From a virus: a stretch of DNA of 42,819 nt. Both the position numbers and the translations under genes were made by a program. The stretch covers positions 1-42,819 of IMG/VR virus record IMGVR_UViG_3300021373_002226, one strand, 5' to 3'. Shown here piece after piece: positions 24,237-39,190 of the stretch (positions are counted from its first letter, which is position 1; each line of letters begins with the position of its first letter). The notes under the pieces are model-generated. The model searched no databases and had not been told where the DNA came from. It saw only the letters and a program-made list of their open reading frames with translations.

Positions 24237-25049
24237 TTATTTTCTTTTAACTGGTTTTTTAGCCCAACGAGTATCCGTATCCCTACCGAACTCATGAATT
24301 AATCCTAATTCGTGTGAAACCCAACTATCGTTACCAACACCCCAAGATGGTATTATTACTGATGGGTTATAATAATGCGTTGCACCATTAGTGTTATCCG
24401 AAAAGTTTGCACCTGACAATAATAATTTCGCATATTTTATTGCAGTTTCCCAAGAGTCATCCTCATATGACCTTTCTTTACACAAAACAGTATTTATCCC
24501 CACCCCTTTATAATCATTCCATCCAGAAAATTGTGAAGATTCTAATACGACATCCACTGGTGTCATATTACGTATATAAACTCTATTTGCAATTATATTA
24601 GATATAGCTTTAATTTCTTTTTCTTTATCTCTAGACATTTCCATAGTTAATGTAATCGCCAATATTTTTTCATCTTCTGTTAATTCTTCTGGCGATTCAA
24701 ATCCTAACTTTGTCAATAACTTACGACCAATATTAACAGGACATTCAAATTCTTTCTTACCATTAGTGTAATACATACCAATTGCCTTAGCAGTAGTAGG
24801 ACCAAAAGATTTATCTGCGGTAAAATTATTATCTATTACCCATTTTTTAGTTTTTGGGTTTTTATTTAACTCTTCTATTAATCTTTTTTGTACTAAATAA
24901 AGTGGACTTTTATCACCATCTTGATTTTCATAACATTTAACCATTTTATTACAATACCATATATCATTAAAAGTTACATTACTTTTTGTATATTTATTTT
25001 CGTTTAAAATTATCCTTTCTAGCTGGTTTTCCGTTATAATAATTTTCAT
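24237..25049 (-). CDS. Tagged cell-wall hydrolase, SleB-like
   Basis: Start set at ATG 25049 (270 residues) rather than 25133, because MKIIITENQLERIILNE is a tag ending L-N-E and a late promoter ends 4 nt upstream. Residues about 48-92 resemble a small peptidoglycan-binding fold (LYLVQKRLIEELN, then SFGPTTAKAI). Residues about 125-260 match the SleB/Hydrolase_2 pattern: ITLTMEMSRDKEKEIKAISN with a likely catalytic Glu, ANRVYIR, SSQFSGWND and GATHYYNP, then HELGLIHEFG. It cleaves peptidoglycan. Either endolysin or entry lysin; the tag favours virion packaging. Confidence 0.85.
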   Translation of the reverse strand: MKIIITENQLERIILNENKYTKSNVTFNDIWYCNKMVKCYENQDGDKSPLYLVQKRLIEELNKNPKTKKWVIDNNFTADKSFGPTTAKAIGMYYTNGKKEFECPVNIGRKLLTKLGFESPEELTEDEKILAITLTMEMSRDKEKEIKAISNIIANRVYIRNMTPVDVVLESSQFSGWNDYKGVGINTVLCKERSYEDDSWETAIKYAKLLLSGANFSDNTNGATHYYNPSVIIPSWGVGNDSWVSHELGLIHEFGRDTDTRWAKKPVKRK

Positions 25050-25053
25050 ATTT

Positions 25054-25060
25054 ATAAATA
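25054..25060 (-). promoter_or_regulatory. Late-type promoter TATTTAT, leaderless spacing, overlapping HNH start
   Basis: Minus-strand CATATATTTATAAATATG: element ends 4 nt before ATG 25049. The divergent HNH gene starts at 25062, so both starts share about 13 nt. Confidence 0.5.
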
Positions 25061-25061
25061 T

Positions 25062-25499
25062 ATGGGAATTCCAATAAAAAACAATAAAAATAGACGTAAA
25101 AATGGTAAAAATACCGCTAAAAGTAGTCTGCATAAGAGAAAAACGGATAAAATTAGGTACTCAATTCGTAAAATTACAAAAAAATACCCAAAAATCAAAC
25201 AAAAAATCAAAAATATTAAGGATTTAGACAAAAAGTTGTATTATGCGATGGTTTGGGAGGTTACAGAACAACAACCTTTATATATTTTGGAAAATTCTGA
25301 CAAAAGAGGGTGGAAAAACCACCATTTAGACCATATTTACCCCATTTCTATGGGTTATAAAGAAAAAATCCCACCAGAAAAGGTAGGAAATATCAAAAAT
25401 CTAAGATTTATTCACTATACAGAGAATTTAGATAAAGGTTCTAAGATAACAAATGAGTCTAGGAATGCATTAAGGAGGATTAAACGTTTAAAAAAATAA
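25062..25499 (+). CDS. Free-standing HNH endonuclease-like protein
   Basis: 145 residues, very basic N-terminus (about 70 residues rich in Lys/Asn). The C-terminal half carries an HNH pattern: HHLDHIYPISMGYKEKIPPE, then VGNIKNLRFIHYTENLDKGS, i.e. His-Asp-His ... Asn ... Asn-x-x-Lys. Such genes are often homing endonucleases in T4-like phages. It is wedged between two minus-strand tagged genes: its ATG abuts the lysin promoter and its last 12 nt overlap the end of gene 25488-26351, as expected for an inserted selfish element. No promoter of either class lies in front. Confidence 0.8.
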   Translation: MGIPIKNNKNRRKNGKNTAKSSLHKRKTDKIRYSIRKITKKYPKIKQKIKNIKDLDKKLYYAMVWEVTEQQPLYILENSDKRGWKNHHLDHIYPISMGYKEKIPPEKVGNIKNLRFIHYTENLDKGSKITNESRNALRRIKRLKK

Positions 25500-26351
25500 C
25501 CCTTTATCTATTACATAGAACATATTACTATTTTGACTATCAGGTACACCGAAAACATTTAATTGTTTTATTGATTTACCTTTATAGGTTTTAATCATTT
25601 CATAGAAATCGTTATGATCCAAATTTTCTTTATACCATTCACATAAATCATCTCTATCCCAACCTAAAGAATCTATTGGGTAGTGCCAATATGTATAAAA
25701 ATAACTTTTTTCACTATCCAAACTATCAAAAGAAACTCCCCACTCCTCTTGAAATTCCTCATCTTCCATTTTTTCTTCTACATCTGGTAGAATATCCCTC
25801 CAAAGACGCTCTTTAGTATTTTGATACCAATGATCCGCCTTATTCTCTAAATATACGTCCCAAAAATACCTAAAAAAATCGTCATTACATCTTATATCAT
25901 TCACTTTACCATATACATAATCCCATAAGTCAGAATCGGTGTGAACCACATCAACTTTCATATCGTCACCACCATGACTTAAAATAAACTCTATAAAATA
26001 TTTAATTGCTTCTGGCCTACGAATACCCATCTCAGATAACAACATATTATAATATTTTAATTTACCTATTTCCTCAATATACGTTTTATCGGTAGATAAT
26101 GCAATTCTTAATGCATTAGATAAATCATCTAATTTATCGTTTTTAAGGTATCCATACAATTTGTCTAAGAATTTTTCGTAGTTTTCACCTAATACGTTGT
26201 TAGCTAACTTACCATCATCATTTCTAAGATCAGTGAGTTGCTTATATCTTAAATTATAACTTCTTTTTAATATAGTATTAGCGAGTTTTTTTTGTATCTC
26301 TTTAGATACCTCTTCTTTTAATATATTTCTTATAGACTCACTTAGTTTCAT
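25488..26351 (-). CDS. Tagged acidic hypothetical protein
   Basis: 287 residues. Tag MKLSESIRNILKE (L-K-E). The middle has many Trp, Tyr, Asp and Glu (RLWRDILPDVEEKMEDEEFQ, YWHYPIDSLGWDRDDLCEWY), similar in flavour to the acidic proteins at 8054 and 30879. No catalytic motif seen. Its ATG lies 1 nt after the final stop of the broken ORF at 26353-26547. Confidence 0.75.
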   Translation of the reverse strand: MKLSESIRNILKEEVSKEIQKKLANTILKRSYNLRYKQLTDLRNDDGKLANNVLGENYEKFLDKLYGYLKNDKLDDLSNALRIALSTDKTYIEEIGKLKYYNMLLSEMGIRRPEAIKYFIEFILSHGGDDMKVDVVHTDSDLWDYVYGKVNDIRCNDDFFRYFWDVYLENKADHWYQNTKERLWRDILPDVEEKMEDEEFQEEWGVSFDSLDSEKSYFYTYWHYPIDSLGWDRDDLCEWYKENLDHNDFYEMIKTYKGKSIKQLNVFGVPDSQNSNMFYVIDKGLFF

Positions 26352-26352
26352 T

Positions 26353-26547
26353 CTACGAATTCATTAGAGACATTGCCTTTCTAACTAACTCATCCTTTTG
26401 TTGTTCAAGTAACTTTTACTTACCTTTTTGTACTTCATTTAATTCCATACCAGCAGATTCTGATTTAATGTCTGCAATTTGACCGTCTAACTTATCGTGA
26501 CTTAACAATAAAGAATGGTATAATTGTGCTTTTTGTTCGTTATTCAT
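26353..26547 (-). pseudogene. Small ORF interrupted by an in-frame TAA
   Basis: From ATG 26547 a 64-codon frame runs to TAG 26355-26353 with one internal TAA at 26418-26416. Both halves look coding: NNEQKAQLYHSLLLSHDK at the start, then after the stop KLLEQQKDELVRKAMSLMNS. One C-to-T change (CAA to TAA) would explain it. It lies tightly packed against the next gene, the same architecture as intact neighbours. Alternatives are a sequencing error or a functional 43-residue product. Confidence 0.55.
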
Positions 26548-26570
26548 AATTTTATTTTTTAAAAACGTTA

Positions 26571-27083
26571 TTAATTCATGTTTAACCTACTTCGGTATCT
26601 ACCATGAACTGATTGAAACATCAATGACATTTTTTCTATCATATCTTCAATACTTTCTATTTGACTTAAAACTGATTTAATCAGTTCCGTTTTAGTCATA
26701 TCATAAGACATACCTATTTTATCCGAATAAAGTAGTCTTAAATAATTTTGTATTCTTTTTAGGGATAACTTATACTCAGTAACTAAATCTTTAAAATCTG
26801 CATCTAAATAAATCTCACCCTTTAACCTATCTATCATATCCACATCCAGATCTATTTTCATAGTTAGGTTGGATATGAAATTAGTTACCATTTCTTTATT
26901 TTCTAATTTACCTTTCGCAGCCATTTCTACAAAAGATTGTAATACTTCAACTGTGGAAGCTAATGTTTGCAATAAAGGCGCCTGTATACTCTGTGCATGT
27001 TTATTCATGATATCTCTATCATCATACCCACCCACCTCGTTGAGTACTTTATTTAGTTGGGATTCTGTTATCCTTATTTTCAT
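26571..27083 (-). CDS. Tagged helical protein
   Basis: 170 residues. Tag MKIRITESQLNKVLNE (L-N-E), then GGYDDRDIMNKHAQ and a helical body (VLQSFVEMAAKGKLENKEMV, SQIESIEDMIEKMSLMF). No known motif. Late-type promoter 14 nt upstream. Confidence 0.75.
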   Translation of the reverse strand: MKIRITESQLNKVLNEVGGYDDRDIMNKHAQSIQAPLLQTLASTVEVLQSFVEMAAKGKLENKEMVTNFISNLTMKIDLDVDMIDRLKGEIYLDADFKDLVTEYKLSLKRIQNYLRLLYSDKIGMSYDMTKTELIKSVLSQIESIEDMIEKMSLMFQSVHGRYRSRLNMN

Positions 27084-27097
27084 CTTAATATTTAATA

Positions 27098-27104
27098 ATA
27101 AATA
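27098..27104 (-). promoter_or_regulatory. Late-type promoter TATTTAT
   Basis: Minus-strand GTTATATTTATTATTAAA, 14 nt before ATG 27083. Confidence 0.5.
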
Positions 27105-27129
27105 TAACAGAACTAATAAAAACTAAACT

Positions 27130-27318
27130 TTATTGATTGTTTGAGTTTTCTTTTACTTCTACCTCTTCTATTTCCATTTGACGATCCCTTATTTTTTCCA
27201 TTTCTTTCATAAACTCTTCTTGAAACATTTTTTGTGCTCGTCTTTGTTCACCTTTAATTCTTTCAGTTCTCGCCCTAGATTTTTGTTTTTGATTTTTTCT
27301 ATGTTTACTTTTTGGCAT
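27130..27318 (-). CDS. Small basic/acidic coiled-coil protein
   Basis: 62 residues: a basic half (PKSKHRKNQKQKSRARTERI) followed by an acidic helix (EFMKEMEKIRDRQMEIEEVE). Untagged. Its charge pattern suggests nucleic-acid binding. Supported by coding-like composition and lack of an alternative gene here, not by homology. Confidence 0.55.
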   Translation of the reverse strand: MPKSKHRKNQKQKSRARTERIKGEQRRAQKMFQEEFMKEMEKIRDRQMEIEEVEVKENSNNQ

Positions 27319-27369
27319 AATATATATTTTTTATATGTTAATAATAATGAAATTTTACAATAATGTCAA

Positions 27370-27376
27370 TATTTAT
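27370..27376 (+). promoter_or_regulatory. Late-type promoter TATTTAT, leaderless spacing
   Basis: Plus-strand CAATATTTATTAATATG: element ends 4 nt before ATG 27381. It decides this start over the one at 27363, which lies upstream of the element. Confidence 0.5.
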
Positions 27377-27380
27377 TAAT

Positions 27381-27818
27381 ATGAAACTTTATGATTTAAT
27401 AAATGAAGAAAAATATACTTTTAACGAAAAAGGTGATTTATATAATAAAGAAGGGTTGTTAATCGAATTAATAGATGAAAACAATTCTGTGGTAGGTAGG
27501 ACTACTCTATATTCACCTTATTTCGGTGGTGTCATAGATAATGAGTATTATGATTTATATAATAATAATGAAAATTTAAATACTGATAACTCATTATATC
27601 TTTTTGATTTATTTGTAGAACCTAATAATAGAAATAAAGGGTGTGCGGGTAAAATAATAGATAAATGTAAAAATATAGTTAAAGATAATAATCATCAGTA
27701 CCTTTGTTTAATTAGTGATATATCTAATTTACCAGCTAAAAGTTTATACGAAAAACATAGTTTTAATGTTGATTATGAAGATGATAAAAAAATATTTTAT
27801 ACTCACAAAATAAGATGA
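27381..27818 (+). CDS. GNAT acetyltransferase with packaging-type tag
   Basis: 145 residues from ATG 27381. GNAT motif A is visible: LYLFDLFVEPNNRNKGC then AGKIIDKCKNI (the R/Q-x-x-G-x-G/A acetyl-CoA loop), followed by NLPAKSLYEKHSF. The N-terminus MKLYDLINEE ends in I-N-E and resembles the start of T4 internal proteins (MK-Y----I-E, from memory). It is the only plus-strand gene with both a tag and a late promoter. If packaged, it could acetylate host proteins on injection. Overlaps the DUF192 gene by 4 nt. Confidence 0.8.
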   Translation: MKLYDLINEEKYTFNEKGDLYNKEGLLIELIDENNSVVGRTTLYSPYFGGVIDNEYYDLYNNNENLNTDNSLYLFDLFVEPNNRNKGCAGKIIDKCKNIVKDNNHQYLCLISDISNLPAKSLYEKHSFNVDYEDDKKIFYTHKIR

Positions 27819-28216
27819 AATTATTAGATTTAGTTTTAAAAGATGTTTCTGTACCATTTAAAAAATCTTGTGAATTAACAATAACTAATTGTAATGGAAA
27901 AGAAGTTGTTGTTAATTGTGAGATACCATCTACCGATGAAGAGAAAATGACTGGTTTAATGTTTAGAGATAGTCTATGTGATAATTGTGGTATGTTCTAC
28001 GATTACGTTGATGGTGGTTTTTGGATGAAGAATGTTAATTTCCCAATTGAAATGGTTTTCATTAACGGTGATGAAATTGTGGACATTCAAAAAGCGTTAC
28101 CACACGATGAAACCTCTATTAAACCATCTGTAGAATCTGATGGTAACTTAGAAGTTAACGAAGGTTTTTGTGAATCTAATAATATATCTGTAGGAAACAA
28201 AATTTACATATCGTAA
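27815..28216 (+). CDS. DUF192-family protein
   Basis: 133 residues. Typical DUF192 core: EEKMTGLMFRDSLCDNCGMF, then GGFWMKNVNFPIEMVFINGD and EIVDIQKALP. The function of the family is unknown. A phage copy translationally coupled (ATGA) to an acetyltransferase is uncommon. The 3' end overlaps the convergent metalloprotease gene by 13 nt. Confidence 0.85.
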   Translation: MKLLDLVLKDVSVPFKKSCELTITNCNGKEVVVNCEIPSTDEEKMTGLMFRDSLCDNCGMFYDYVDGGFWMKNVNFPIEMVFINGDEIVDIQKALPHDETSIKPSVESDGNLEVNEGFCESNNISVGNKIYIS

Positions 28217-29244
28217 ATCTTTGGATTAATTTTTCCAAATCTTCTGACTAATACACCCGCTTTAGCGTTCGCCTCATCTTCCCAAGGAGAACCATCTTCA
28301 CCCTCTTCTGGATTACCCCTTAAATCTCCTCTCAAATTTTGTTGATGATGAATCATTTCGTGTGCGATGGATCTTATGATATCTGCGTCCGCCCTATCTT
28401 TCGTTAAAACGTTTATTTCGTTGTCTAACATATCATAGTTCGCAAGTGTCTCAATATCGTCACCATTACTTGTTAAATTGACTCTAAAGTCATCATCTAA
28501 AGATAGTTCTTTCTTACCAAACTCAATAAAATCATCAATAACTGACTCATTAATTTTTTTTATACTTTTTTGTGCAGTAGATGTGTAGTTTGATAATAGA
28601 CCTAATTCACTTATTCTTTGTGGTAATTTATACATAAAAGATTCCACTATACATTCTATTAAGCCACTATCTTCTATACCATAGTCTTTCTTAATAACTC
28701 TCATAATTTCAATCCTATTACCTTGTCCAGAACAACCACCTATTGTGTAAGTCTCATTTACGTAATTATATTCTAACCCACAACCAAAATTACAATGTTT
28801 CATTCTGACTAAAATATCTTTGTTTGGTAAAACCCATTCCCCACTATCACCTAAATTTTCATCGAATTCAATTTTACCCTTTTCTGTTTGATAATGTAAC
28901 CAATCATATACTACCTCCATTGAAAATTCATCCCAATCATAGAGATCATCAGGATTGTCCATTTTATAGTAATATCCTTCATCGTATGGATCTTCTTTAT
29001 CGTAATCATAACCCCAACCCAATTCATTAATAATTTCGTTATTAGACCTTATATCGTCTAATTCTTCGTCTAATGCGTAAATATCATACAATTCACCTAA
29101 AGTACCAAAAGTATAAGGTCTATTATCATCCTCAACTTCTTTAATATATACATCAGATAAAAGTCTATTCACAACTTTATCACAGAATTTTTTATCAACT
29201 CCCTCTAACTCCTCTTTTATTATTTTCCTAATTAATCTTTTCAT
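28204..29244 (-). CDS. Tagged zinc metalloprotease-like protein
   Basis: 346 residues. Tag MKRLIRKIIKE (I-K-E). The central 200 residues are acidic and Tyr-rich (EEELDDIRSNNEIINE-like). Near the C-terminus, IRSIAHEMIHHQQNLRGDL holds HExxH (HEMIH, about 295-299), and 22 residues on WEDEANAKAG provides a candidate third zinc ligand Glu (about 322-324), as in gluzincins. A protease packaged in the head and delivered to the host, or one acting inside the prohead, are both possible. First gene after a cluster of tagged genes from 30855. Confidence 0.8.
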   Translation of the reverse strand: MKRLIRKIIKEELEGVDKKFCDKVVNRLLSDVYIKEVEDDNRPYTFGTLGELYDIYALDEELDDIRSNNEIINELGWGYDYDKEDPYDEGYYYKMDNPDDLYDWDEFSMEVVYDWLHYQTEKGKIEFDENLGDSGEWVLPNKDILVRMKHCNFGCGLEYNYVNETYTIGGCSGQGNRIEIMRVIKKDYGIEDSGLIECIVESFMYKLPQRISELGLLSNYTSTAQKSIKKINESVIDDFIEFGKKELSLDDDFRVNLTSNGDDIETLANYDMLDNEINVLTKDRADADIIRSIAHEMIHHQQNLRGDLRGNPEEGEDGSPWEDEANAKAGVLVRRFGKINPKIYDM

Positions 29245-29262
29245 TTAATTAATTTTATAGTA

Positions 29263-29496
29263 CTATTCACTAAATAAGTACTCAGTATTTCTAAATACCT
29301 CTTCAAGTATCTCAGTTAAATCATCATAGTTAAGTGTACCATCAAAACCCATTCTATCTGCATAATCTAATGTACTTATCATTTCAGATGTAATGGTGTT
29401 AATTAATTCATTCTTTACTAGTTCTTTACCATCGAAATAATGTTCATTAAGTGATATCTTTTCCTCTTTTAATATTTTTTTGATTCTATTTTTCAT
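29263..29496 (-). CDS. Small tagged protein
   Basis: 77 residues. Tag MKNRIKKILKE (L-K-E), then an acidic helical body (LNEHYFDGKELVKNELINTI, DDLTEILEEVFRNTEYL). Tandem with a gene having a near-identical tag (29497-29790). Function unknown. Confidence 0.7.
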   Translation of the reverse strand: MKNRIKKILKEEKISLNEHYFDGKELVKNELINTITSEMISTLDYADRMGFDGTLNYDDLTEILEEVFRNTEYLFSE

Positions 29497-29790
29497 TTAA
29501 CTATATTTTTTTATAATTTCGTTTATTTTATTAATTATGTTCATACTTTCATCTCTTTCTTCCCACACTTTATCATTACCACTCTGTATTGACATTCTTA
29601 ACTTTTCTAAGTCTCTTATCATATCTTCATTGTTAGTTTGATATGCGAATTGTATTGCAGACTCTATATATCTAAGTCCCTCTGCGAAACTATCTGCCGC
29701 CTTATGTAGTAAATCAATACTAATCTCAGTAATATCTTTAGTTTCTGTTTTAAACTCTTCTTTTAATATATTCTTTATTAATCGTTTCAT
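29497..29790 (-). CDS. Small tagged protein
   Basis: 97 residues. Tag MKRLIKNILKE (L-K-E), sharing its form with 28204-29244 and 29263-29496, as if the tag itself had been duplicated. The rest is a helical bundle (DLLHKAADSFAEGLRYIESA). It overlaps the upstream gene by 4 nt. Confidence 0.7.
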   Translation of the reverse strand: MKRLIKNILKEEFKTETKDITEISIDLLHKAADSFAEGLRYIESAIQFAYQTNNEDMIRDLEKLRMSIQSGNDKVWEERDESMNIINKINEIIKKYS

Positions 29791-30233
29791 TCTTGTCCCT
29801 TTTCAATAACTTCAAACTCATCTTCACCAACTATTAAGTTTAAACCCCTACCATTGTCCCAATCAACAACTAATTGATCCTCACCAAACATTTGGATTGA
29901 GTTTACTTCTTTAACTGTTCCCGTTACCCCAGATTCTATTGGGTTGGGGTCGTTATTCATTTTAATAAGTCTTATTCTATCACCAGGTAAAGCTAATTTA
30001 CCATTACCGTAATTATCTCTAATCCAATTTTTTAATAGATAATAATAAATATCAGTACGTTCATCTATACCATACCTTAAAATTTCTGGTGAAATGTATT
30101 TAATCGACAAACTAATTACATCATCATATAAATCATAAGATTTTGTGGGTTGTGTTACCCTATTAAATCTTTTATTTAACCTATTTAATATTTTACTTAT
30201 ACCTTTTTCCATATTAGATTGGATTGTATTCAC
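29787..30233 (-). CDS. DUF4314-like protein
   Basis: 148 residues. The C-terminal half, LPGDRIRLIKMNNDPNPIES then GVTGTVKEVN and LVVDWDNGRGLNLIVGEDEF, matches the small beta-barrel DUF4314 pattern. The N-terminal half is a basic helix (KGISKILNRLNKRFNRVTQ) with no (I/L)-x-E end. It overlaps the upstream gene by 20 nt, so the start could be the later Met (residue 8). Confidence 0.75.
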   Translation of the reverse strand: MNTIQSNMEKGISKILNRLNKRFNRVTQPTKSYDLYDDVISLSIKYISPEILRYGIDERTDIYYYLLKNWIRDNYGNGKLALPGDRIRLIKMNNDPNPIESGVTGTVKEVNSIQMFGEDQLVVDWDNGRGLNLIVGEDEFEVIEKGQE

Positions 30234-30855
30234 CCATTTTAAATGGTTCTAAAATAGGGTTAATGGCGTGTAATGAATAACTACCATCTGGACGATATTC
30301 AGCATACACGAACTCCGCACCTACCACTTTATTAGCCCCATCTGAGGTATGAAAGAAATCAGAAATAAAAGGATTATATTTAATTTCTTCAGATACATCT
30401 TTTAGTGTTACGGGATCATTAGGTAATTCTTGTACTACACCACCTACACCTACAACTTGTGAACGTTTTGACATCTCACCAGCGTCTTTGGTAGTTCTCA
30501 TAATTTTGTGATAACCAGGACTTATATCGAAATTTATATCACCACCCAATAATAAATCATTTGTATAACCTATGATACCAGGAGTACTATCTTTTCTACC
30601 TCTTCTATTTCTACCATAAACACCAAACGCACCATTCTTATTGTGCATTATATTATGTCTGTTTGTGTGGAACCAAACCTCTTTCCCTATCAACTCTGGT
30701 GAGTCACCTTCTAAATAACCATGTTGTGCTTTTGGTGCAACAACAGGATCACTCATATCTGGATAGTAAGGTGGAGTTTCATTTATTAAATGTCCCCTCA
30801 TCTCCATTAGAAGATTAACCTTTTTTATATTGTTACTTTTATCTTTTGTTCTCAT
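30214..30855 (-). CDS. Hypothetical protein with tag-like N-terminus
   Basis: 213 residues. A basic helix with VNLLMEMRGHLINET (I-N-E) could be a longer tag. The remainder is mixed alpha/beta with no known motif (ELIGKEVWFHTNRHNIMHNK, KVVGAEFVYAEYRPDGS). Late-type promoter 5 nt upstream; first gene of the operon reaching 28204. Confidence 0.7.
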   Translation of the reverse strand: MRTKDKSNNIKKVNLLMEMRGHLINETPPYYPDMSDPVVAPKAQHGYLEGDSPELIGKEVWFHTNRHNIMHNKNGAFGVYGRNRRGRKDSTPGIIGYTNDLLLGGDINFDISPGYHKIMRTTKDAGEMSKRSQVVGVGGVVQELPNDPVTLKDVSEEIKYNPFISDFFHTSDGANKVVGAEFVYAEYRPDGSYSLHAINPILEPFKMGEYNPI

Positions 30856-30860
30856 ATTTT

Positions 30861-30867
30861 ATAAATA
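30861..30867 (-). promoter_or_regulatory. Late-type promoter TATTTAT, near-leaderless
   Basis: Minus-strand GTATATTTATAAAATATG, 5 nt before ATG 30855. Confidence 0.5.
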
Positions 30868-30878
30868 TACAAAATTAT

Positions 30879-31838
30879 TTAATAATGATCTATCCTATCC
30901 AATAATATCTCATTAAAATACTTCCAATCAATATCACCCGCACCACCATATCTAAAATGTTTATAGGTGTTTATTGATATACAATCTTCTGGTAAGAAAG
31001 AGTTGTATTCCATTCCCCACCCTTCTCTTTCGTCCTCCAGTATACCATCTAAAATTTCTAAAAATGTTGGGTATCCATGTGTTAATTCTGCGTTCAGTTG
31101 TGATTTAAATCTTTCTGATGATGCAATATCACCTAATTCTACTTGTCCTACGTATTCTAAACCAAATCCTTTAACACCTCCTTCATCTGTTTGATTTTGT
31201 AAACCCCCATCAAAATTGGATAAATAATCTGTTATACCTTCTTCGAAGTCTGAGTGTAATGCATCTATGTCCGCACTATGTTGAGCGTCCCCTAATGCAC
31301 AACCAATATAATCACCAAACTCTTCTTCAACAAATTCTTTAAAATCTTCTTCAGAAGGTTCACCCTCTAAATTCTTTAAATAATGTTCCTTCATTATACC
31401 TAAATTCTCTTTATCTATTTTATCAAAATAGTGATCGTCATAATCATAACAATCGTAATGTGCACCATAATCATAATCAAAACTAAAATATTTTCTAACC
31501 ATATCTCGAATACCATAATCTCTATCATCACAAAAGAAAGATGACATTTCCGAAGGGAAAAAACTAATTTTTATATATGAATTGGGTCTATCTTTATGTT
31601 CAGTTAAATATTTATAGATTATATTACTTTCTAGGTCCGTAGTTTGAATATTTTTATCATCAAGCTTTAAATTCTGTAAAAAATCAAAAATAAAATTAGG
31701 GTTAGATTCTATATGTTTATCAAAAATTCTGAATATCTTTTGATATACCTTTTCAGGGAACATTTGTTTTTCGAAGATTGTTTTATCATCTTCATTATCT
31801 TCATCATATTCCCTTAATATTTTTCTAATTAAGTCCAT
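30879..31838 (-). CDS. Tagged acidic protein, family A
   Basis: 319 residues. Tag MDLIRKILRE (L-R-E). Very acidic and aromatic (FSFDYDYGAHYDCYDYDDHY, then FDKIDKENLGIMKEH). Resembles the protein at 8054-9154 at two separated segments, suggesting a family. Function unknown. Late-type promoter 18 nt upstream, next to the divergent host-type promoter of gene 31899. Confidence 0.75.
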   Translation of the reverse strand: MDLIRKILREYDEDNEDDKTIFEKQMFPEKVYQKIFRIFDKHIESNPNFIFDFLQNLKLDDKNIQTTDLESNIIYKYLTEHKDRPNSYIKISFFPSEMSSFFCDDRDYGIRDMVRKYFSFDYDYGAHYDCYDYDDHYFDKIDKENLGIMKEHYLKNLEGEPSEEDFKEFVEEEFGDYIGCALGDAQHSADIDALHSDFEEGITDYLSNFDGGLQNQTDEGGVKGFGLEYVGQVELGDIASSERFKSQLNAELTHGYPTFLEILDGILEDEREGWGMEYNSFLPEDCISINTYKHFRYGGAGDIDWKYFNEILLDRIDHY

Positions 31839-31856
31839 TAACTAAACATTTATTTA

Positions 31857-31863
31857 ATAAATA
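31857..31863 (-). promoter_or_regulatory. Late-type promoter TATTTAT
   Basis: Minus-strand CCAATATTTATTAAATAAA, 18 nt before ATG 31838; abuts the -33 region of the divergent host-type promoter. Confidence 0.5.
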
Positions 31864-31894
31864 TTGGTTTTTAATATAAAAATTTATATATTTG
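31863..31894 (+). promoter_or_regulatory. Host-type promoter ATTG-N20-TATATTTG
   Basis: TATATTTG at 31887-31894 with ATTGG 20 nt upstream. The ATG of the next gene follows after 4 nt. The string TATATTTGTGATATGA is identical to that in front of gene 16762-16986. Confidence 0.6.
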
Positions 31895-31898
31895 TGAT

Positions 31899-32171: not shown

Positions 32172-32253
32172 ATTTGTTGATCGGGATACCACTCATATTC
32201 GTCTTCCATATCTTATTTATATATTAAATATAATTAATTTTTAAAAAATTTAA

Positions 32254-32285
32254 TTTGGTAGATTAAAATATTTTTCGTATATTTG
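32254..32285 (+). promoter_or_regulatory. Host-type promoter TTTG-N20-TATATTTG
   Basis: TTTG 32254-32257 and TATATTTG 32278-32285. It shares TTTGGTAGATTAAAA with the promoter at 21671. Drives the SprT-like gene. Confidence 0.75.
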
Positions 32286-32305
32286 TATAACAAAATTAAA
32301 CAATT

Positions 32306-32833
32306 ATGAGTTTCAAATCAATTAAAGACGTTGAGTCACACGCAAAACAGTTAATGGAAACAGAGTATCGAGTGGAAGTCAATGGGAAGGTTCACAGGTT
32401 GGCGCCCAATAAATTAGGATACAAATTTAAATTCGATAACGCTAAGAGACGTTTTGGGTTATGTTCTTATAGAAGAAAAGTGATAAGTCTATCAAAACCA
32501 CTCGCCACTAATAACCTAGATAACTTCTTTCAGATTAATGATACCATACTACATGAGATAGCACACGCACTTTCTTATAAGATACATGGTAGTAGAGGTA
32601 GTGGTCATTGTAAGCGATGGGTTCATGTTGCAAAGTCTATTGGTTGTAATGGTATTAGATGTTATGATAGTAGTCAGGTTAAAAGTATAGAACATAAGTA
32701 TACTTTAGTCTGTGATACATGCGGTGGTGAGAATCCAAGGTATAGAAGACCTAGACAGGATTATTCATGTGCTAAGTGTGAACCTAATAAGTTTGATGAG
32801 AGATACCTATTAAGAGTAGTACAAAACTTTTAA
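32306..32833 (+). CDS. SprT-like zinc metalloprotease
   Basis: 175 residues. HEIAH (83-87) with a further His at about 101 in GSGHCKRWVHVAK, and a C-terminal zinc ribbon CDTCG/CAKCE (Cys 136, 139, 155, 158): the full SprT arrangement. Family members (Spartan, SprT) cleave DNA-bound proteins and DNA-protein crosslinks. Untagged, host-type promoter, so probably acts early in the cell, e.g. clearing proteins from phage DNA. Confidence 0.88.
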   Translation: MSFKSIKDVESHAKQLMETEYRVEVNGKVHRLAPNKLGYKFKFDNAKRRFGLCSYRRKVISLSKPLATNNLDNFFQINDTILHEIAHALSYKIHGSRGSGHCKRWVHVAKSIGCNGIRCYDSSQVKSIEHKYTLVCDTCGGENPRYRRPRQDYSCAKCEPNKFDERYLLRVVQNF

Positions 32834-32847
32834 GGTGGTTACCCTTA

Positions 32848-32854
32848 TATTTAT
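32848..32854 (+). promoter_or_regulatory. Late-type promoter TATTTAT, leaderless spacing
   Basis: Plus-strand TTATATTTATTTATATGGG, 4 nt before ATG 32859. It partly lies in an imperfect ACCC/GGGT hairpin after the SprT-like gene. Confidence 0.4.
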
Positions 32855-32858
32855 TTAT

Positions 32859-32951
32859 ATGGGTTATTATATTATTTTGGGAGTTATTTCAGTGGTGTTT
32901 TTATATATGATGTCACTAATAGATGATGAAATAAATAAAAAAGATAAATGA
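32859..32951 (+). CDS. 30-residue membrane peptide
   Basis: MGYYIILGVISVVFLYMMS followed by a charged tail LIDDEINKKDK: one membrane segment and a cytoplasmic tail. Late-type element at leaderless spacing, and the TGA stop overlaps the next ATG (ATGA). Both support a real gene. A holin-like or regulatory membrane role is possible, not shown. Confidence 0.55.
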   Translation: MGYYIILGVISVVFLYMMSLIDDEINKKDK

Positions 32952-33148
32952 AAAATTGTATAGAGTGTCCTTGGGTTATAAGGAACAAAAATAATGACAC
33001 AATTATTAACCATTCTAAAAAATGGGGTAAGAAACATAATTGTCATATGAAGATAAAGGGTACAAATAAAAAACTTTGGGAGGATAGCCCAAAGTTTCAA
33101 TGTGTAGGTAATAAAAAATTAATATCTTCCACTAATATAAACAAATAA
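32948..33148 (+). CDS. Small Cys-rich protein with CxxCPW motif
   Basis: 66 residues. It starts MKNCIECPWVIRNKNND and has a second HNCHMKIKG cluster, then a Cys near the end (FQCVGNK), a probable zinc-binding mini-fold like the small CxxCPW proteins of phages (DUF6283-like). Coupled to the membrane peptide. Its end overlaps the convergent gene 33119-33358 by 30 nt. Confidence 0.65.
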   Translation: MKNCIECPWVIRNKNNDTIINHSKKWGKKHNCHMKIKGTNKKLWEDSPKFQCVGNKKLISSTNINK

Positions 33149-33358
33149 CACTTCTGGTATTCTAACACACTGTGACATATTACCATTACTATCTGTACAA
33201 CCAATTACCTCTAAACTCCTAACAATATTTTTAATATCTCTGTTTGCGTTTCTTGTGATATTCTCTATATATTGTTTTGAATATAATTTATCTGAATCGT
33301 AATAAGATTCCTTTAAAATGGTTTTATATTGTTTTTCATTTATAATAATTTTCATCAT
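33119..33358 (-). CDS. Small tagged protein
   Basis: 79 residues. Tag MMKIIINEKQYKTILKE (L-K-E). The start is ATG 33358 or the adjacent ATG 33355; the sequence ATGATG overlaps the upstream TGA, so translation is coupled. The mature part has two Cys (EVIGCTDSNGNMSQCVRIPE), a motif echoed in the protein encoded upstream (GCTDGNGNRLCSVIPEPI). Unknown function. Confidence 0.7.
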   Translation of the reverse strand: MMKIIINEKQYKTILKESYYDSDKLYSKQYIENITRNANRDIKNIVRSLEVIGCTDSNGNMSQCVRIPEVLFVYISGRY

Positions 33359-34245
33359 TTTTTCCTTTCACAACATTCCACACATTTCCTCATTTGACGA
33401 AATGGTGCGGGTCCACCACTTACGGACACACATTTACCTTTTGATGGGTCATAATAATAACCCATTACTGCAGTAGTCATTCTTCCAAATGGAATTGGTT
33501 CTGGTATTACACTACACAAACGGTTTCCATTTCCATCTGTACAACCCTCTTTTGGGTTAGGTGTATCAGGTAAATCTACATCATTTAACCCCAGACACCC
33601 CCTAAAACCTGTAAAGTCAACTTTTCCTGATGGTAATAACCCTTTATCGGTAAGAATATATTTATAAACACAAGATTTTAATGTTTCACATTTAACTTTA
33701 TTTAATGGGTTATAAACACCAATATCATCAAAATCTATCTCTTTACTTTTTATAGGAGATTTTCTTTTTGGGAATGGTTCATCAGAAGACAATTTTTTAC
33801 ATTGACATTGTTTAATACATAATTTATTATAAGCTTCTAAAGTTTCTTTACGTGTTGCTGATCCTGGTTTAAGTACTTCACACATTTTATTTAAAGTATC
33901 GTAACCAACTACACCATCCACACTTAACTTATACTTCCTTTGAAATTCTATAACCGCATTTTTAGTGTGTTTCCTATATTTTCCGTCACAACCTTGATAT
34001 AGGTCACCACACTCCAAACCAATACCACCACCTTGATATTTTGGGTTAAATCCATTCACCGCTAAAAGGTGTTGTATATATTTAACCACATCACCATTAG
34101 AACCCGATTTTGCTAGTTTTCTTTTACAGTGAATATCACAAGGGACATCACCTACTTGTATTGATCCACCTTCATAGGATTCAGATATTACTCTTTTTAC
34201 AATTCTTTGTAAATCTGATTCTTTTAATTTAATTACTTTTTTCAT
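33355..34245 (-). CDS. Tagged peptidoglycan-binding protein
   Basis: 296 residues. Tag MKKVIKLKESDLQRIVKRVI then S-E (I-S-E). Residues about 45-125 form a peptidoglycan-binding type-1 domain: DVVKYIQHLLAVNGFNPKY, then TKNAVIEFQRKYKLSVDGVV and GYDTLNKMC. The C-terminal part is Cys-rich (GCTDGNGNRLC, KCVECCERKK), probably disulphide or metal bonded, with no catalytic motif seen. It would bind cell wall, fitting the lysin group nearby. Confidence 0.78.
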   Translation of the reverse strand: MKKVIKLKESDLQRIVKRVISESYEGGSIQVGDVPCDIHCKRKLAKSGSNGDVVKYIQHLLAVNGFNPKYQGGGIGLECGDLYQGCDGKYRKHTKNAVIEFQRKYKLSVDGVVGYDTLNKMCEVLKPGSATRKETLEAYNKLCIKQCQCKKLSSDEPFPKRKSPIKSKEIDFDDIGVYNPLNKVKCETLKSCVYKYILTDKGLLPSGKVDFTGFRGCLGLNDVDLPDTPNPKEGCTDGNGNRLCSVIPEPIPFGRMTTAVMGYYYDPSKGKCVSVSGGPAPFRQMRKCVECCERKK

Positions 34246-34290
34246 AAATTTTTATTTATTTTTTCATTTATATTTTACAAAACGGATTAC

Positions 34291-34638
34291 TTAATTTTTA
34301 ATCCCTGGAATATTTCTGTCATTGGGACATATATATTGACCCCCATTTGAACTCTCTACCCAGTCCACTCTCGAAGCCGCAAATCCGTTTTGGTTCCATG
34401 TTTCACCACCAAACTTAAAATTAGTAACATATTCTTTACCATCCTTACAACCTTCAAAACTATCGCTCCCATATCTTTCTTTACACATTGTACTATAATA
34501 TTTATCATAGTTAAAATCACCATCCTTACAAAATTGTTTTTCTAAAACGTTTGTAGATTCATTTAATACTCGTTTAACGATTTTTCTTAAATCACTTTCG
34601 GTTAGATTAACAACTTTTCCGTTTTTTTTAATTTTCAT
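34291..34638 (-). CDS. Small tagged protein
   Basis: 115 residues. The tag (KIKKNGKVVNLTESDLRKI then VKRVLNE) is the near-twin of that at 2267-2539, 32 kb away. The mature part has four Cys (FCKDGDFNYDKYYSTMCKER, GCKDGKEY, YICPNDRN) and no recognised family. Late-type promoter 15 nt upstream. Confidence 0.75.
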   Translation of the reverse strand: MKIKKNGKVVNLTESDLRKIVKRVLNESTNVLEKQFCKDGDFNYDKYYSTMCKERYGSDSFEGCKDGKEYVTNFKFGGETWNQNGFAASRVDWVESSNGGQYICPNDRNIPGIKN

Positions 34639-34653
34639 ACGTATTATTTTAAT

Positions 34654-34660
34654 ATAAATA
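34654..34660 (-). promoter_or_regulatory. Late-type promoter TATTTAT
   Basis: Minus-strand AATATATTTATATTAAAA, 15 nt before ATG 34638, divergent to the host-type promoter at 34679. Confidence 0.5.
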
Positions 34661-34678
34661 TATTAATTTTACTAAAAA

Positions 34679-34710
34679 TTTGGAAGTTTAATATATTTGC
34701 CGTATATTTG
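34679..34710 (+). promoter_or_regulatory. Host-type promoter TTTG-N20-TATATTTG
   Basis: TTTG 34679-34682, TATATTTG 34703-34710; followed 20 nt later by the ATG of the secreted glycosidase-like gene. Confidence 0.75.
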
Positions 34711-34730
34711 TTATATAAAAATAAACAGTT

Positions 34731-35423
34731 ATGAAAATTTTAAATTATTTATTAATCATTTTACTATCAATTATGTCTCCCGATATTGTGGACGACAATC
34801 ACGATTCAAAAAAAGTTAAAGTTTTAGATTTAAATGGGTATCATATTATAACCATTAAAAAAAATAAAATGGATTTTTCCGTTTCTGAGGGAGTCGGAAA
34901 AGATTTTGATTTTTATGTGAACTCAAACTTCTTTACTGCAGAGAGAAAACCTACTTGTGGTGTTGTAATAGACGGTAAAACAAAAAATAGACAAATTAGT
35001 GGTGGTGGTTCATTTATTGTCAAAAATAATAAACCTAACATTGTTTTTAACAAAGTTTCTAATGTAGAATATTTGTCACAAACACACGTATGGGTTATTA
35101 AAAACAAAAACATTAACGATAGAATGTTAAATATGAATCACGCTAAGAAAAAAGTATGTCGTTTACTTATTGGTAAAAACAAAAATGGTGAAATAACAAT
35201 AGTCCACTCAAATAAGGGTAACAAAATTACTATGAGGGAATTAACTAACTTCGCCTTAAATAATGGTGTGATAGATGCTTTCATACTCGATAGCGGACCT
35301 TCTGTAGAAGTATTTGTTAAAGATGGTAGTTATGTCTATGATTTTAAATCTGTAAATGATAGACAAAAAAGTATAGTAGGAATACCTAAACCAGTTATAT
35401 ATATAACAGGTAATTTTAAATAA
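34731..35423 (+). CDS. Secreted phosphodiester-glycosidase-like protein (NAGPA/DUF2233)
   Basis: 230 residues. N-terminal hydrophobic segment (ILNYLLIILLSIMSPDIV) acts as signal peptide or anchor. The NAGPA-type core shows FYVNSNFFTAERKPTCGVVI, SGGGSFIVKNNKP, CRLLIGKNKNGEI and DAFILDSGPSVEVFV, where the family usually has LDGG-S. The fold hydrolyses phosphodiester or sugar linkages; in bacteria it acts on cell-wall or exopolysaccharide sugars. Exported from the cell under a host-type promoter, like the DUF2927-like gene: possible surface modification. Confidence 0.8.
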   Translation: MKILNYLLIILLSIMSPDIVDDNHDSKKVKVLDLNGYHIITIKKNKMDFSVSEGVGKDFDFYVNSNFFTAERKPTCGVVIDGKTKNRQISGGGSFIVKNNKPNIVFNKVSNVEYLSQTHVWVIKNKNINDRMLNMNHAKKKVCRLLIGKNKNGEITIVHSNKGNKITMRELTNFALNNGVIDAFILDSGPSVEVFVKDGSYVYDFKSVNDRQKSIVGIPKPVIYITGNFK

Positions 35424-35425
35424 AA

Positions 35426-36970
35426 TTATCCATATCCGAAACCACCTGACATTTTGGGTGTTTTTGGATATTTTTTCTTTTTTTCTGGAGATAATTTATT
35501 ATACATTATATTATATAGTATTTCTTCTTCTGACTTTTGAAATTTAGGTTCTAATGTGTCAGGTGATTTCACACTATAATTCAATGCGAAAGGTAAACAT
35601 TGGGTTTTATTTTCATATGTTTTTTGTACTTCCTCAACATAACCAATAGAAGTCTTACCTTTGTGTTCTAAATATGGGAAATAACCCACAATCCATTGAT
35701 CTTGATAAACTGTAAGTATACCCACATCTTTAGGGTTTCCTTTATCATATGGGCGATATGTTTTTTTATTACATGGTGCAGCAAAATTTTCATTATTAGT
35801 TTTACAATATTTTTGTATTTTTTCTGGTCCCATATTATGTGCTAAAATTGCTAAATCTAAAGAAACATTACCTGAACCATCTATTGTAAACATTTTAGTC
35901 TTACCTTCTGCCCTTCTTTTATCATCTACACGTTTTTTAGTTATTGGATTAACTGAAGGTGTAGTACCTACACCCCTACTAATACTTAATTTATAATCTT
36001 TCCATATTCTATACATTATACCAAGTATTTGTTTACCCCAATTAAATGAATAATTATATTCTCCTACTACTTTATCTAAACCATATTTGTACCAAGTATT
36101 TTTAGTAAATTGTCCGACACCTAAACTTTGTCCACTATATTTTTTAGGTAATAAAGACCCCATACCCATACCCCTAATAAGTTCAGCGTAATCATCTCTG
36201 TCTGTAGTAGTCTTACCCATTTTAGTTTCTCTTTGTGTTGTACCTATAGCATATCTCATAATAGTTAAAAGAGTTTCATCGTTAGACATCCCCATACTTT
36301 TTTTAACCTTATCTCTATTTTCCCATATAATCCACAGTGCAATTGATAGTGGAGGGTTATCACCTAAACAACTAAAATTATTTATAACTTCTTTAGTTAA
36401 TTTTGACATATTCGCACTAGGACCATAAAAATCGCCAAAAAGTCCATCTCGTTTACCACCAAAGATGTCTAATAAAAATTTTTCTGCATCAACATCAGTC
36501 CTTAGACCACCGACCCCATACTGATCTAAAATATCTTTTTCTTTTTTAGTAAAACTTATCGCATTTTCAACCTCTTTTGGTATTTGTTTATCCCAATTCT
36601 TATAATCTATATCTTTTCCTTTGGTATTTTTATAACCGACTTTTTTAATTATATCGGATAATACTTTCGCCATTTTAGGTCCAAAAATTTTACCTGTTTT
36701 ACTACCTAAATCATAACCCTCTTTAGTTAATTTATCGTATAACTTACCAACGGTATCAACATTTCTATCTTCATTAATACCATAATAATATCTAACAAAT
36801 GCCTTCGCACTATGATCTCTAAAATCACCATCAATATCACTTTCATTAGGTAACCAACCATCTACAAATAAAAACTTCTGTATCTGATATGCATTTGCTT
36901 CAGGATAGGTTTCTTCAGTTAATATACCAATAATTTTTTTTAATTGTTGTTCTTTAATAATAATTTTCAT
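35426..36970 (-). CDS. Tagged lytic transglycosylase-like protein
   Basis: Start at ATG 36970 (514 residues), because MKIIIKEQQLKKIIGILTE is a tag ending L-T-E; the ATG at 37000 would add ten residues inside the upstream gene. Residues about 235-390 fit a lysozyme-like/SLT fold: TTQRETKMG with a catalytic Glu (about 248), SLGVGQFTKNTWYKYG and LAILAHNMGPEKI. About residues 25-110 look like a divergent repeat for wall binding (FGPKMAKVLSDII). Cuts glycan strands. Third lysin of the cassette 39190-35426. Confidence 0.8.
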   Translation of the reverse strand: MKIIIKEQQLKKIIGILTEETYPEANAYQIQKFLFVDGWLPNESDIDGDFRDHSAKAFVRYYYGINEDRNVDTVGKLYDKLTKEGYDLGSKTGKIFGPKMAKVLSDIIKKVGYKNTKGKDIDYKNWDKQIPKEVENAISFTKKEKDILDQYGVGGLRTDVDAEKFLLDIFGGKRDGLFGDFYGPSANMSKLTKEVINNFSCLGDNPPLSIALWIIWENRDKVKKSMGMSNDETLLTIMRYAIGTTQRETKMGKTTTDRDDYAELIRGMGMGSLLPKKYSGQSLGVGQFTKNTWYKYGLDKVVGEYNYSFNWGKQILGIMYRIWKDYKLSISRGVGTTPSVNPITKKRVDDKRRAEGKTKMFTIDGSGNVSLDLAILAHNMGPEKIQKYCKTNNENFAAPCNKKTYRPYDKGNPKDVGILTVYQDQWIVGYFPYLEHKGKTSIGYVEEVQKTYENKTQCLPFALNYSVKSPDTLEPKFQKSEEEILYNIMYNKLSPEKKKKYPKTPKMSGGFGYG

Positions 36971-36974
36971 AATA

Positions 36975-38288
36975 CTAACCAACTTTTTTAGTCCAAGCAA
37001 TTCTTAAATTATCTGCGGGTTCACTAATAACATTACCACCTATATTGTGAAATACAATAGGTTTACCATATTTTGTTGCCCCAACTATACCTAAGTGAGT
37101 ATTCATACCCCATCCAGTACCATTTTTTATGGTATTACCAGGTTGTCTATTCCCTTCAGTTCCTGTAAACCATTTATCACCAGCCTGAAAAAATGCTTCT
37201 TGATGGTGTTTTGAGGGGTAATAAAATATACCTACAACATCATCCATATCTATATTTTTTACTGTACCCTTTGCGGGCACTAAACTATCTACTAAATCTC
37301 TTACTTTAGTATTAAAACTACCATTTTCTTTAGCACCTTCACCTGATTTGTCTATTTTCTGATATAATTCGATAATTTTATCTATTTTGTCTTTTGGGAG
37401 ATTTTTAAACGCTGAGTATGAGGTTGGTCCAATTTTAGAATCATAATCATGCGCTAACCAAGCACTACCTGTTGCATCAAACTGATTACTAAAATTATTT
37501 ACGAATTGGGCACATTGTAAAGTTCCTGGGTTAGCAATTATACCATCTACTTTTTTCGTACTATTAATTTTATCAGTTTTAATTTTGTTTTGATATCTTG
37601 GATTCATATTTGTAGATAGTACTAATCCTGTACCACCTCCACCTTTTAATTTATTCCATTTAGGATTTTTTAATTTATAATATTCAAAAACTCTGATTCT
37701 ATCACCATTTTTATATTTTAACACTTGATTTAAAGTATTTAAAACATAACTATTTTTATAAGAAGTAGTTTCAGAAGGTGGGTCTAGTTTATGTTTTTTA
37801 GCAGTATTCGGTAGATTATCGTTTACCCATTTTCTAAATTCATCACCCTGTTCTTTATTACTAAATGGTGTTTTAGTTAATTTTTCACTATAAACTCTCC
37901 ACCCCTCTTCTTTTTTAGGTGGTATAGGTTTTGTTTCATCATCCTGTTCTTTTCCTTCTCCCGCAGAATTTAAATACTTAATTGTTTTTTCACCTGCTTG
38001 TCCGTCCCATTCCATGTAATTGTTTGGGAAAGCTAATTTTTGTACTTTTTTAACTGCAGCTTTAGTTTTACTACCATAAGAACCATCTACACCATCACTA
38101 TTAGGTCCACTACTACCTAAACCATAACCAAGTTCCTTTAACCTTCTTTGTAATTTTTTTACATCATCACCCTCAGAACCAACCACTAAAACTCTTTTAG
38201 GGGGGTAAGTTAAAATAATTACTTCATTTAATATTCTCTGATTAGCTTCTTTTATTAAATGTCTCTTTTGTTTTTCTATTCTACCCAT
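36975..38288 (-). CDS. Tagged CHAP/NlpC-like peptidoglycan amidase with PG-binding domain
   Basis: 437 residues. Tag MGRIEKQKRHLIKEANQRIL then N-E (L-N-E), of the same subtype as 39220-39519. Residues about 33-107 are a peptidoglycan-binding type-1 domain (SEGDDVKKLQRRLKELGYGL). In the C-terminal half, NPGTLQCAQFVNNF (Cys about 259) and NTHLGIVGATKYGKPIVFHN (His about 398 and 414) make a papain-like Cys-His arrangement. Predicted amidase/endopeptidase of the wall. Confidence 0.75.
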   Translation of the reverse strand: MGRIEKQKRHLIKEANQRILNEVIILTYPPKRVLVVGSEGDDVKKLQRRLKELGYGLGSSGPNSDGVDGSYGSKTKAAVKKVQKLAFPNNYMEWDGQAGEKTIKYLNSAGEGKEQDDETKPIPPKKEEGWRVYSEKLTKTPFSNKEQGDEFRKWVNDNLPNTAKKHKLDPPSETTSYKNSYVLNTLNQVLKYKNGDRIRVFEYYKLKNPKWNKLKGGGGTGLVLSTNMNPRYQNKIKTDKINSTKKVDGIIANPGTLQCAQFVNNFSNQFDATGSAWLAHDYDSKIGPTSYSAFKNLPKDKIDKIIELYQKIDKSGEGAKENGSFNTKVRDLVDSLVPAKGTVKNIDMDDVVGIFYYPSKHHQEAFFQAGDKWFTGTEGNRQPGNTIKNGTGWGMNTHLGIVGATKYGKPIVFHNIGGNVISEPADNLRIAWTKKVG

Positions 38289-38299
38289 AATTTTTAATT

Positions 38300-39190
38300 T
38301 TAAATGTATTCATATAATGATGTAGATGTTTGTATACCAACTATACCATCAACCGTTAGATTTTCGTCTCTTTGAAATTCTTCTACTGCTTTCTTAGTCA
38401 TAAACCCAAATATACCATCAACCCCATCTTCGGCATCTTCAAAACTACCTAAATCATAATTTAAGTTACGTAATATCCTTTGTATTTCTAAAACACCTTC
38501 ACCATTACTACCTACAGAAATTAATTCTCTATTATCCCCATTTTCTATAATATCTTCTATAGTTAAATTATTTTTACTAACAACACCATCAACCTTTTCT
38601 ACGACATCTTCTTTGTCTATAATAAATATTTTATCTCCTTTTAGTGAAGAATTTAAATAAGGCCAAGGATCGATACTACCTTTACGATAATCTTTTTTGT
38701 AAACTGAAAAATGTAAGTGTGGGTGAGTACCTTTAGCGTTCCCAGTATCACCAACAGTACCTATAAACATTCCTTTATATACCTCATCACCTATATCTAA
38801 ATCATTACGAACACTATCTAAATGTGCGTAATAATAATTTTTACCATCATCACCTAATATATTTATAGTGTTACCACCAATACGGTTATTTCTAATATTA
38901 CTTATTTTTGAAACAACACCGTTTACACAAGAAACTAAAGGTGTTCCTTTTGGTGCGAAAATATCTATACCTAAATGACCACCTCTAGATTTGTGAGCTG
39001 CATCTCCTCCACCGTAGTCTGAATTGTGTATTGAATCGTATCTGTCTAATACTTTAGGTGTCACATTAGATCCCAAACCTTGCGAATCATAACCAACATT
39101 AAAATTATCATTCCCAATGGGAAAAATAAAGTTAGACTCGTTTATCCTATAAATTTTTTTTAGTTGGTTTTCTGTTATTATAATTTTCAA
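38300..39190 (-). CDS. Tagged M23 peptidase with PG-binding domain (TTG start)
   Basis: 296 residues. Start codon is TTG at 39190, forced by the tag KIIITENQLKKIYRINES (I-N-E); no ATG fits. M23/LytM zinc motifs: GHLGIDIFAP (His 72, Asp 76) and HPHLHFS (156-162), with YYAHLDS between. C-terminal residues about 226-294 are a peptidoglycan-binding domain (GVLEIQRILRNLNYDLG, AVEEFQRDENLTVDG). Cleaves peptide cross-links. First lysin of the cassette. Confidence 0.9.
   Translation of the reverse strand: MKIIITENQLKKIYRINESNFIFPIGNDNFNVGYDSQGLGSNVTPKVLDRYDSIHNSDYGGGDAAHKSRGGHLGIDIFAPKGTPLVSCVNGVVSKISNIRNNRIGGNTINILGDDGKNYYYAHLDSVRNDLDIGDEVYKGMFIGTVGDTGNAKGTHPHLHFSVYKKDYRKGSIDPWPYLNSSLKGDKIFIIDKEDVVEKVDGVVSKNNLTIEDIIENGDNRELISVGSNGEGVLEIQRILRNLNYDLGSFEDAEDGVDGIFGFMTKKAVEEFQRDENLTVDGIVGIQTSTSLYEYI

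Follow-up and report, generated by a model that had tools for sequence, protein, structure and literature searches.

In phage T4, short propeptides direct the internal proteins to the capsid, the first 10 residues of IPIII sufficing for head targeting, and gp21, the prohead protease, cleaves behind L/I-x-E (PMC9026906). Head-targeting tags that are cut have been described for T4, P1 and the giant phages, and T7 offers a precedent for a wall enzyme carried in the head. Here we describe a set of peptidoglycan-related (wall) proteins encoded by IMG/VR virus record IMGVR_UViG_3300021373_002226, analysed over its whole 42,819 bases (42.8 kb; hereafter the window), which are part of a larger genome. 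The window is a fragment of a T4-superfamily phage, a bacterial virus with its own S77 prohead protease. An earlier sequence-only reading had named four peptidoglycan hydrolases and a wall-binding protein as carriers of one N-terminal tag; all five open reading frames (ORFs) exist where it placed them, and each begins with the tag. The best reading of this tag, from the sequence evidence below, is a T4-like capsid-targeting propeptide that the phage protease would cut off.

On the minus strand of the window lies a cluster of T4-type head and packaging genes, which encode an S77 prohead protease, a scaffold-type protein, a portal and the large subunit of the terminase. This terminase shares ~27-33% identity with those of T4-like phages, its closest isolates being Microcystis and Flavobacterium phages, and 293 related terminases came from viral contigs. 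The long contigs that serve as relatives are G001 (166 kb), G002 (152 kb), G003 (127 kb), G004 (89 kb), G005 (54 kb) and G006 (49 kb), and the gene order of the window is mostly kept in relatives.

Five wall proteins with N-terminal tags

All five wall proteins are encoded on the minus strand and open with a short stretch, basic or amphipathic in character, whose last residues are hydrophobic-x-E; tags in the window are 17-27 residues long and end in L/I-x-E. The SleB-type cell wall hydrolase (24237-25049; predicted tag 24999-25049, MKIIITENQLERIILNE|N, the bar marking the predicted cut) matches PF07486 with E 5.8e-8 and 33.7 bits against a cut-off of 27, and its E137, which we take to be the catalytic residue, is invariant in three homologues. 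The M23 metallopeptidase (38300-39190; TTG start; tag 39137-39190, LKIIITENQLKKIYRINE|S) also has a PG_binding_1 domain (Pfam E 1.4e-20 and 1.9e-15, respectively). It reaches 73.7 bits with PF01551, for which the cut-off is 28.7, and contains the zinc-ligand motifs HLGID and HLHF.

Family models back these two of the four chemistries that had been proposed, and the CHAP/NlpC-like and SLT-like assignments fall short of that. Family searches with the product of 36975-38288 (subtype-C tag 38223-38288, MGRIEKQKRHLIKEANQRILNE|V) gave PG_binding_1 alone (E 4e-10), with no match to CHAP (PF05257) or NlpC/P60 (PF00877); Cys/His/Asn motifs picked out by eye (CAQFV..NTHLGIV..FHNIGG) suggest a possible cysteine-hydrolase C-terminus. 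The product of 35426-36970 (tag 36914-36970, MKIIIKEQQLKKIIGILTE|E) has lytic-transglycosylase-like motifs, E..GVGQF..AHNMG, likewise seen by eye. Neither PF01464 (SLT) nor any other family matched it in Pfam, PHROGs, NCBIfam or PDB sequences, and searches of viral contigs and of phages gave no relatives of it. The order of its motifs recalls GH23 and is absent from 1,439 other proteins and 100 shuffled proteomes, the pattern having been composed post hoc after the sequence was viewed. Alignment-free AlphaFold2 models gave a pLDDT of 33 for this protein and 35 for the product of 36975-38288. The fifth protein (33355-34245; tag 34180-34245, MKKVIKLKESDLQRIVKRVISE|S, ending RVISE|S) is predicted to bind peptidoglycan through PG_binding_1 (Pfam E 1.7e-11), and no catalytic domain was recognised in it by the family searches.

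Three of the enzymes stand in one operon behind a tagged small protein, as the sequence-only reading had it. The small protein (39220-39519, minus strand; subtype-C tag 39454-39519, MGRISKLKRLMMEESNKKLLGE|S; homologues in G001, G003 and G004) heads a run of genes in the same direction that continues with 38300, 36975 and 35426, at gaps of 29, 11 and 4 nt. Within the cluster of tagged wall genes lies, on the plus strand and so in opposite orientation, an untagged gene (34731-35423) for a NAGPA (phosphodiester glycosidase-like) protein with a signal-peptide-like N-terminus; G002 has a different signal-peptide protein at a similar place.

The tag as a sequence class

A tag profile was trained on 24 tags of relatives whose mature parts are mutually non-homologous, with the window left out. 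At 8 bits or more, it found 94 N-termini in ~1,250 proteins, the corresponding numbers for interior and shuffled stretches being 3 and 2; given these controls, we reject chance and start-codon artefacts as the origin of the tags. Among the wall proteins, the product of 33355-34245 scores 40.2 bits, SleB 24.3 and M23 16.9, and the tags of the SLT-like (5.1) and CHAP-like (3.6) proteins score weakly with this profile from relatives. The tag of the CHAP-like protein, which is of subtype C, reappears on unrelated proteins with 61-68% identity. There are at least four such subtypes, all occurring on unrelated proteins.

A combined rule marks at least 17 of the 58 window genes and 37 of the 219 genes of G001 as tagged, compared with 0-2 per genome in shuffled controls; these counts are low estimates, because the rule overlooks some tags that are evident by eye. 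Since the tag occurs genome-wide, the tags of the wall enzymes are one portion of a larger set. A marker of wall enzymes only is ruled out, as the profile and the subtypes are found on many unrelated proteins.

The tag resembles a T4-type propeptide

Three features of T4-type propeptides are found in the window and its relatives: an encoded S77 protease, a short N-terminal extension ending in L/I-x-E, and one class of extension on unrelated mature proteins. The S77 prohead core protein protease, of the T4 gp21 type (917-1606, minus strand; PF03420 E 5.9e-23; PHROG head maturation protease E 2e-39), is the enzyme predicted to remove the tags. In four relatives the capsid protein has ALLNE|ST, ALLNE|AT or ALLSE|ST at a position that we take to correspond to the processing site of T4 gp23. 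Many tags end in a similar way (RVLNE|S, RTLNE|S, RINE|S), and tag ends do vary: that of the 33355-34245 protein is ISE, and the predicted cut in the SLT-like protein is LTE|E.

The strongest evidence for a propeptide comes from the family of the 33355-34245 protein, which was collected by way of its mature domain. Seven homologues, that of the window and those of six relatives, share 43-79% identity past the predicted cut and keep a Glu at the junction, and the sequences before the cut fall into three unrelated tags, the first in the window, G001, G003, G004 and G005, the second in G002 and the third in G015. An exchange precisely at the cut site would be hard to explain if the tag were not a module of its own that can be removed.

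It seems improbable to us that the tag is some other sorting signal, used for instance in tail or baseplate assembly, and left uncut by the prohead protease. Cleavage here is a prediction, and such a signal would suit the annotation as tail lysins that Phage_lysozyme2 relatives have in other phages. But the tags share with the capsid protein the L/I-x-E end of a T4-type prohead protease that the phage encodes, and small proteins adjoining the scaffold and terminase genes are tagged as well.

Tagged and untagged wall enzymes in relatives

Between an LRR gene and an HNH gene, a tagged wall hydrolase is present in the window and in 6 of 6 relatives covering this slot, despite a change of family: the enzyme is SleB in the window, G002 and G006, and Phage_lysozyme2 with SH3 in G001, G003, G004 and G005. 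The flanking LRR protein (22540-24186, minus strand; MKYIISENQYKILLKE|D; LRR_4 E 4e-7) is itself tagged and is found in all relatives covering the site. Relatives add to the tagged chemistries not only this phage lysozyme but also glucosaminidase and VanY, which occur together with M23 in a 1006-residue protein of G001, and NlpC/P60, which occurs with PG_binding_1 in G002. Relatives of SleB were also found via the active-site motif. In L183 a capsid gene is followed by a tagged SleB gene, in L185 a tagged SleB gene adjoins an untagged PG-binding enzyme, and several others have tags or tag-like starts.

Overall, 20 of 25 proteins with wall domains are tagged, against 16% of all genes; counted by orthologous groups, which were made by hand, 8 of 12 wall groups are tagged (binomial P ~1e-4 to 3e-3, by background rate). 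The link between tag and wall enzymes drawn in the sequence-only reading holds in that wall proteins are enriched among the carriers, and fails as a restriction to them.

Untagged wall enzymes of relatives include a PG_binding_1 + Amidase_2 protein (G001, 35269-36153), a PG_binding_1 + GH19 protein (G003, 33869-34693) and a membrane-anchored M23 protein (G002, 84504-85079), all of which look like ordinary lysis enzymes; the start of a short Amidase_2 protein in G001 (26855-27463) is ambiguous. Because these endolysin-type enzymes of near-complete relatives have no tag, the suggestion of a virion-borne set that digests the wall from within is not supported. All four window enzymes are tagged and in this differ from an endolysin, expected to lack a propeptide and to stand beside a holin or membrane-protein gene; the untagged enzymes of relatives fit that description better.

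The same comparison bears on the idea that the tagged proteins are late enzymes of redundant or conditional lysis, with a tag that is incidental or holds them inactive until lysis. Endolysins often have M23, SleB or PG-binding domains (the PHROG matches are of class lysis), and SleB-like proteins of Vequintavirinae have been linked with lysis (PMC7344957). However, untagged endolysin-type enzymes exist in the near-complete relatives, tagged SleB stands beside an untagged PG-binding enzyme in L185, and the junction of tag and mature domain is like the site in the capsid protein; we give this idea only a slim chance.

Proposed role of the tagged wall enzymes

With moderate confidence we propose that the tagged wall enzymes are packaged in the head, cut, ejected at infection and active in the periplasm at entry, and that lysis is left to untagged endolysins. 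The N-terminal propeptides would draw the tagged proteins into the prohead core. On head maturation the S77 protease would cut after the E, and the mature proteins would stay beside the packaged DNA; this cargo would include a peptidoglycan-active set made up of SleB, M23 with its PG-binding domain, the PG-binding protein and the two less certain enzymes. At infection the mature enzymes may exit via the tail, either together with the DNA or before it, and in the periplasm they could open or trim the wall around the entry site. Separate, untagged endolysins would lyse the cell at the end of infection.

The steps of this proposal differ in strength. Our comparison documents, at the level of sequence, the tag, its modularity, a common cleavage-type site, the protease gene, the SleB and M23 families and the split into tagged and untagged enzymes in relatives. 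Packaging in the head is a well supported deduction because of the S77 protease, the L/I-x-E tag ends and the junctions like ALLNE|ST of the capsid protein. Cleavage of the tags is predicted from the same sites, ejection of the mature enzymes would follow by analogy, and wall cutting at entry is plausible. Of the earlier suggestion of head-packaged enzymes delivered at entry, the packaging is upheld as a deduction from sequence, and delivery follows only from how the internal proteins of T4 and P1 behave. The least certain part is the periplasm at entry as the working place, which is favoured because of the T7 gp16 precedent and the tail-lysin annotation of Phage_lysozyme2 relatives.

Several points weigh against this proposal. 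Many proteins of other kinds bear the tag, and for 2 of the 5 wall proteins no catalytic family was recognised. The cytoplasm, where the T4 internal proteins act, is without peptidoglycan, so that release into the periplasm is an assumption. In the relatives, an [LIVMF]xE-type site is found in 73 of 77 profile carriers, and P3 is L or I in 67 of the 73 profile-A carriers having the site, frequencies that arise partly by construction because the regular expression used to select the training tags already demanded [LIVMF]xE. This caveat spares the window and the 33355 family, the latter having been gathered via its mature domain.

The first and third of these points would also suit packaged enzymes that work mainly inside the infected cell, in takeover, in remodelling the wall against a second phage or in removing an envelope defence, and not in making an entry hole. 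T4 Alt and IPI work in the cytoplasm after ejection (PMC9026906), which makes a role in takeover or phage exclusion possible, and a tag class on many unrelated proteins, the LRR protein among them, is what a mixed effector cargo would show. Against this, PG_binding_1 on 3 of the 5 proteins and SH3 on the lysozyme of relatives indicate the wall as target, and the Phage_lysozyme2 relatives of other phages are annotated as tail lysins. We regard such an in-cell role as unlikely, if still worth weighing.

For the clade as a whole we offer, a little short of even odds, a broader reading. The head of these T4-superfamily phages would be a cargo bay for exchangeable wall enzymes, loaded by swappable cut tags and co-injected with the genome, apart from the tail lysozyme and the endolysin. 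The enzymes proposed under this joint reading are of amidase or lytic-transglycosylase type, endopeptidase, lysozyme, glucosaminidase and carboxypeptidase.

Other tagged proteins and features of the window

Further tagged proteins are encoded on the minus strand. A small one (34291-34638; tag 34558-34638, ending RVLNE|S) scores 37.5 bits, and another (33119-33358; 17.5 bits), kept in relatives, overlaps the end of 33355-34245. In the head cluster, the gene for a probable prohead core or scaffold-type protein (2572-3339), which has several [LIV]xE sites and the same place in five relatives, adjoins that of a small tagged protein (2267-2539; ending RTLNE|S; 35.7 bits). Two tagged proteins have no assigned function, one adjoining the terminase (7195-8052; 23.0 bits) and one at 26571-27083 (MKIRITESQLNKVLNE|V; 27.7 bits).

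The product of 15003-15800, present in all five long relatives, has a weak match to NTP_transf_2 (nucleotidyltransferase) and a tag-like start, ISEQEVSDIIQKE|D; it is a possible injected effector. That of 28204-29244, kept in relatives, has a subtype-B tag, MKRLIRKIIKEE, and towards its C-terminus a zinc-protease-like motif, HEMIH. Relatives of SleB in L167, L168, L169, L172, L173, L179, L186 and L187 are long proteins (437-1057 aa) with an N-terminus that is NUDIX-hydrolase-like by eye only, an unusual fusion. The cultured T4-like Flavobacterium phage immuto (MW353175) has repeated N-terminal tags of its own, FDLKKFLVENKLT and MKKQILSEQFRRMQ..ITES, for example at 102294-118931 and partly within the head gene cluster, which suggests that head-targeting tags may be common among such phages; a wall enzyme with a tag was not seen in immuto.

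The portal gene of the window (3382-5303, minus strand) is broken into two overlapping ORFs, and relatives have one ORF of 632-649 aa. As the near-identical contigs L002 and L003 read through and differ from the window here by a single base, the split reflects either a recent mutation or an error made in sequencing or assembly. The single match of the window to a genome contig was a 7-kb contig of a Thermoplasmatales metagenome-assembled genome, in which it is probably misbinned. Only hints point to a Bacteroidota host: the style of signal peptides, start sites rich in A, and the presence of a Flavobacterium phage among the isolates with the closest terminases.

Comparison with known systems

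In the open-access literature we found no T4-type phage described as loading several separate wall enzymes by cut tags, and no description of these tag strings or of capsid targeting combined with peptidoglycan enzymes. If the proposal is true, wall digestion by T4-type phages would have a third place and time, in addition to those of the tail lysozyme and the endolysin, and capsid-targeting propeptides would serve generally to load enzymes. From the tag one could also predict, by a simple sequence rule, which uncharacterised proteins travel in the virion and are injected by these common environmental phages.

The closest likeness is to IPI, IPII, IPIII and Alt of T4, which are cut by gp21 and, like the window tags, combine a short N-terminal L/I-x-E propeptide and an S77 protease with unrelated mature proteins. 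The tag sequences themselves differ, the profile having no match in the 66 ORFs of the part of T4 that was scanned. The cargo of the window phage would be far larger and would include peptidoglycan-active proteins, none of which we found reported for T4. In SPN3US and phiKZ, many head proteins are processed after a short E-ending motif and packaged with the DNA; the motif is A/S-x-E, propeptides reach ~127 residues, and we found no wall enzymes reported there (PMC5694885). For DarB of P1, N-terminal residues likewise suffice for head targeting (PMC9024508), but its sequence and cargo are unrelated, and the wall enzyme of P1 sits in the tape measure protein.

T7 gp16, an internal virion protein with a lytic transglycosylase domain, is the likeness in function, a head-borne wall cutter that is ejected at infection (PMC8954989). 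Homology to gp16 was not found, as no window protein had a PHROG or Pfam match of its kind. In place of this one protein, the T4-superfamily phage of the window would use separate enzymes of several chemistries, loaded by cut tags and not as components of a core tunnel.

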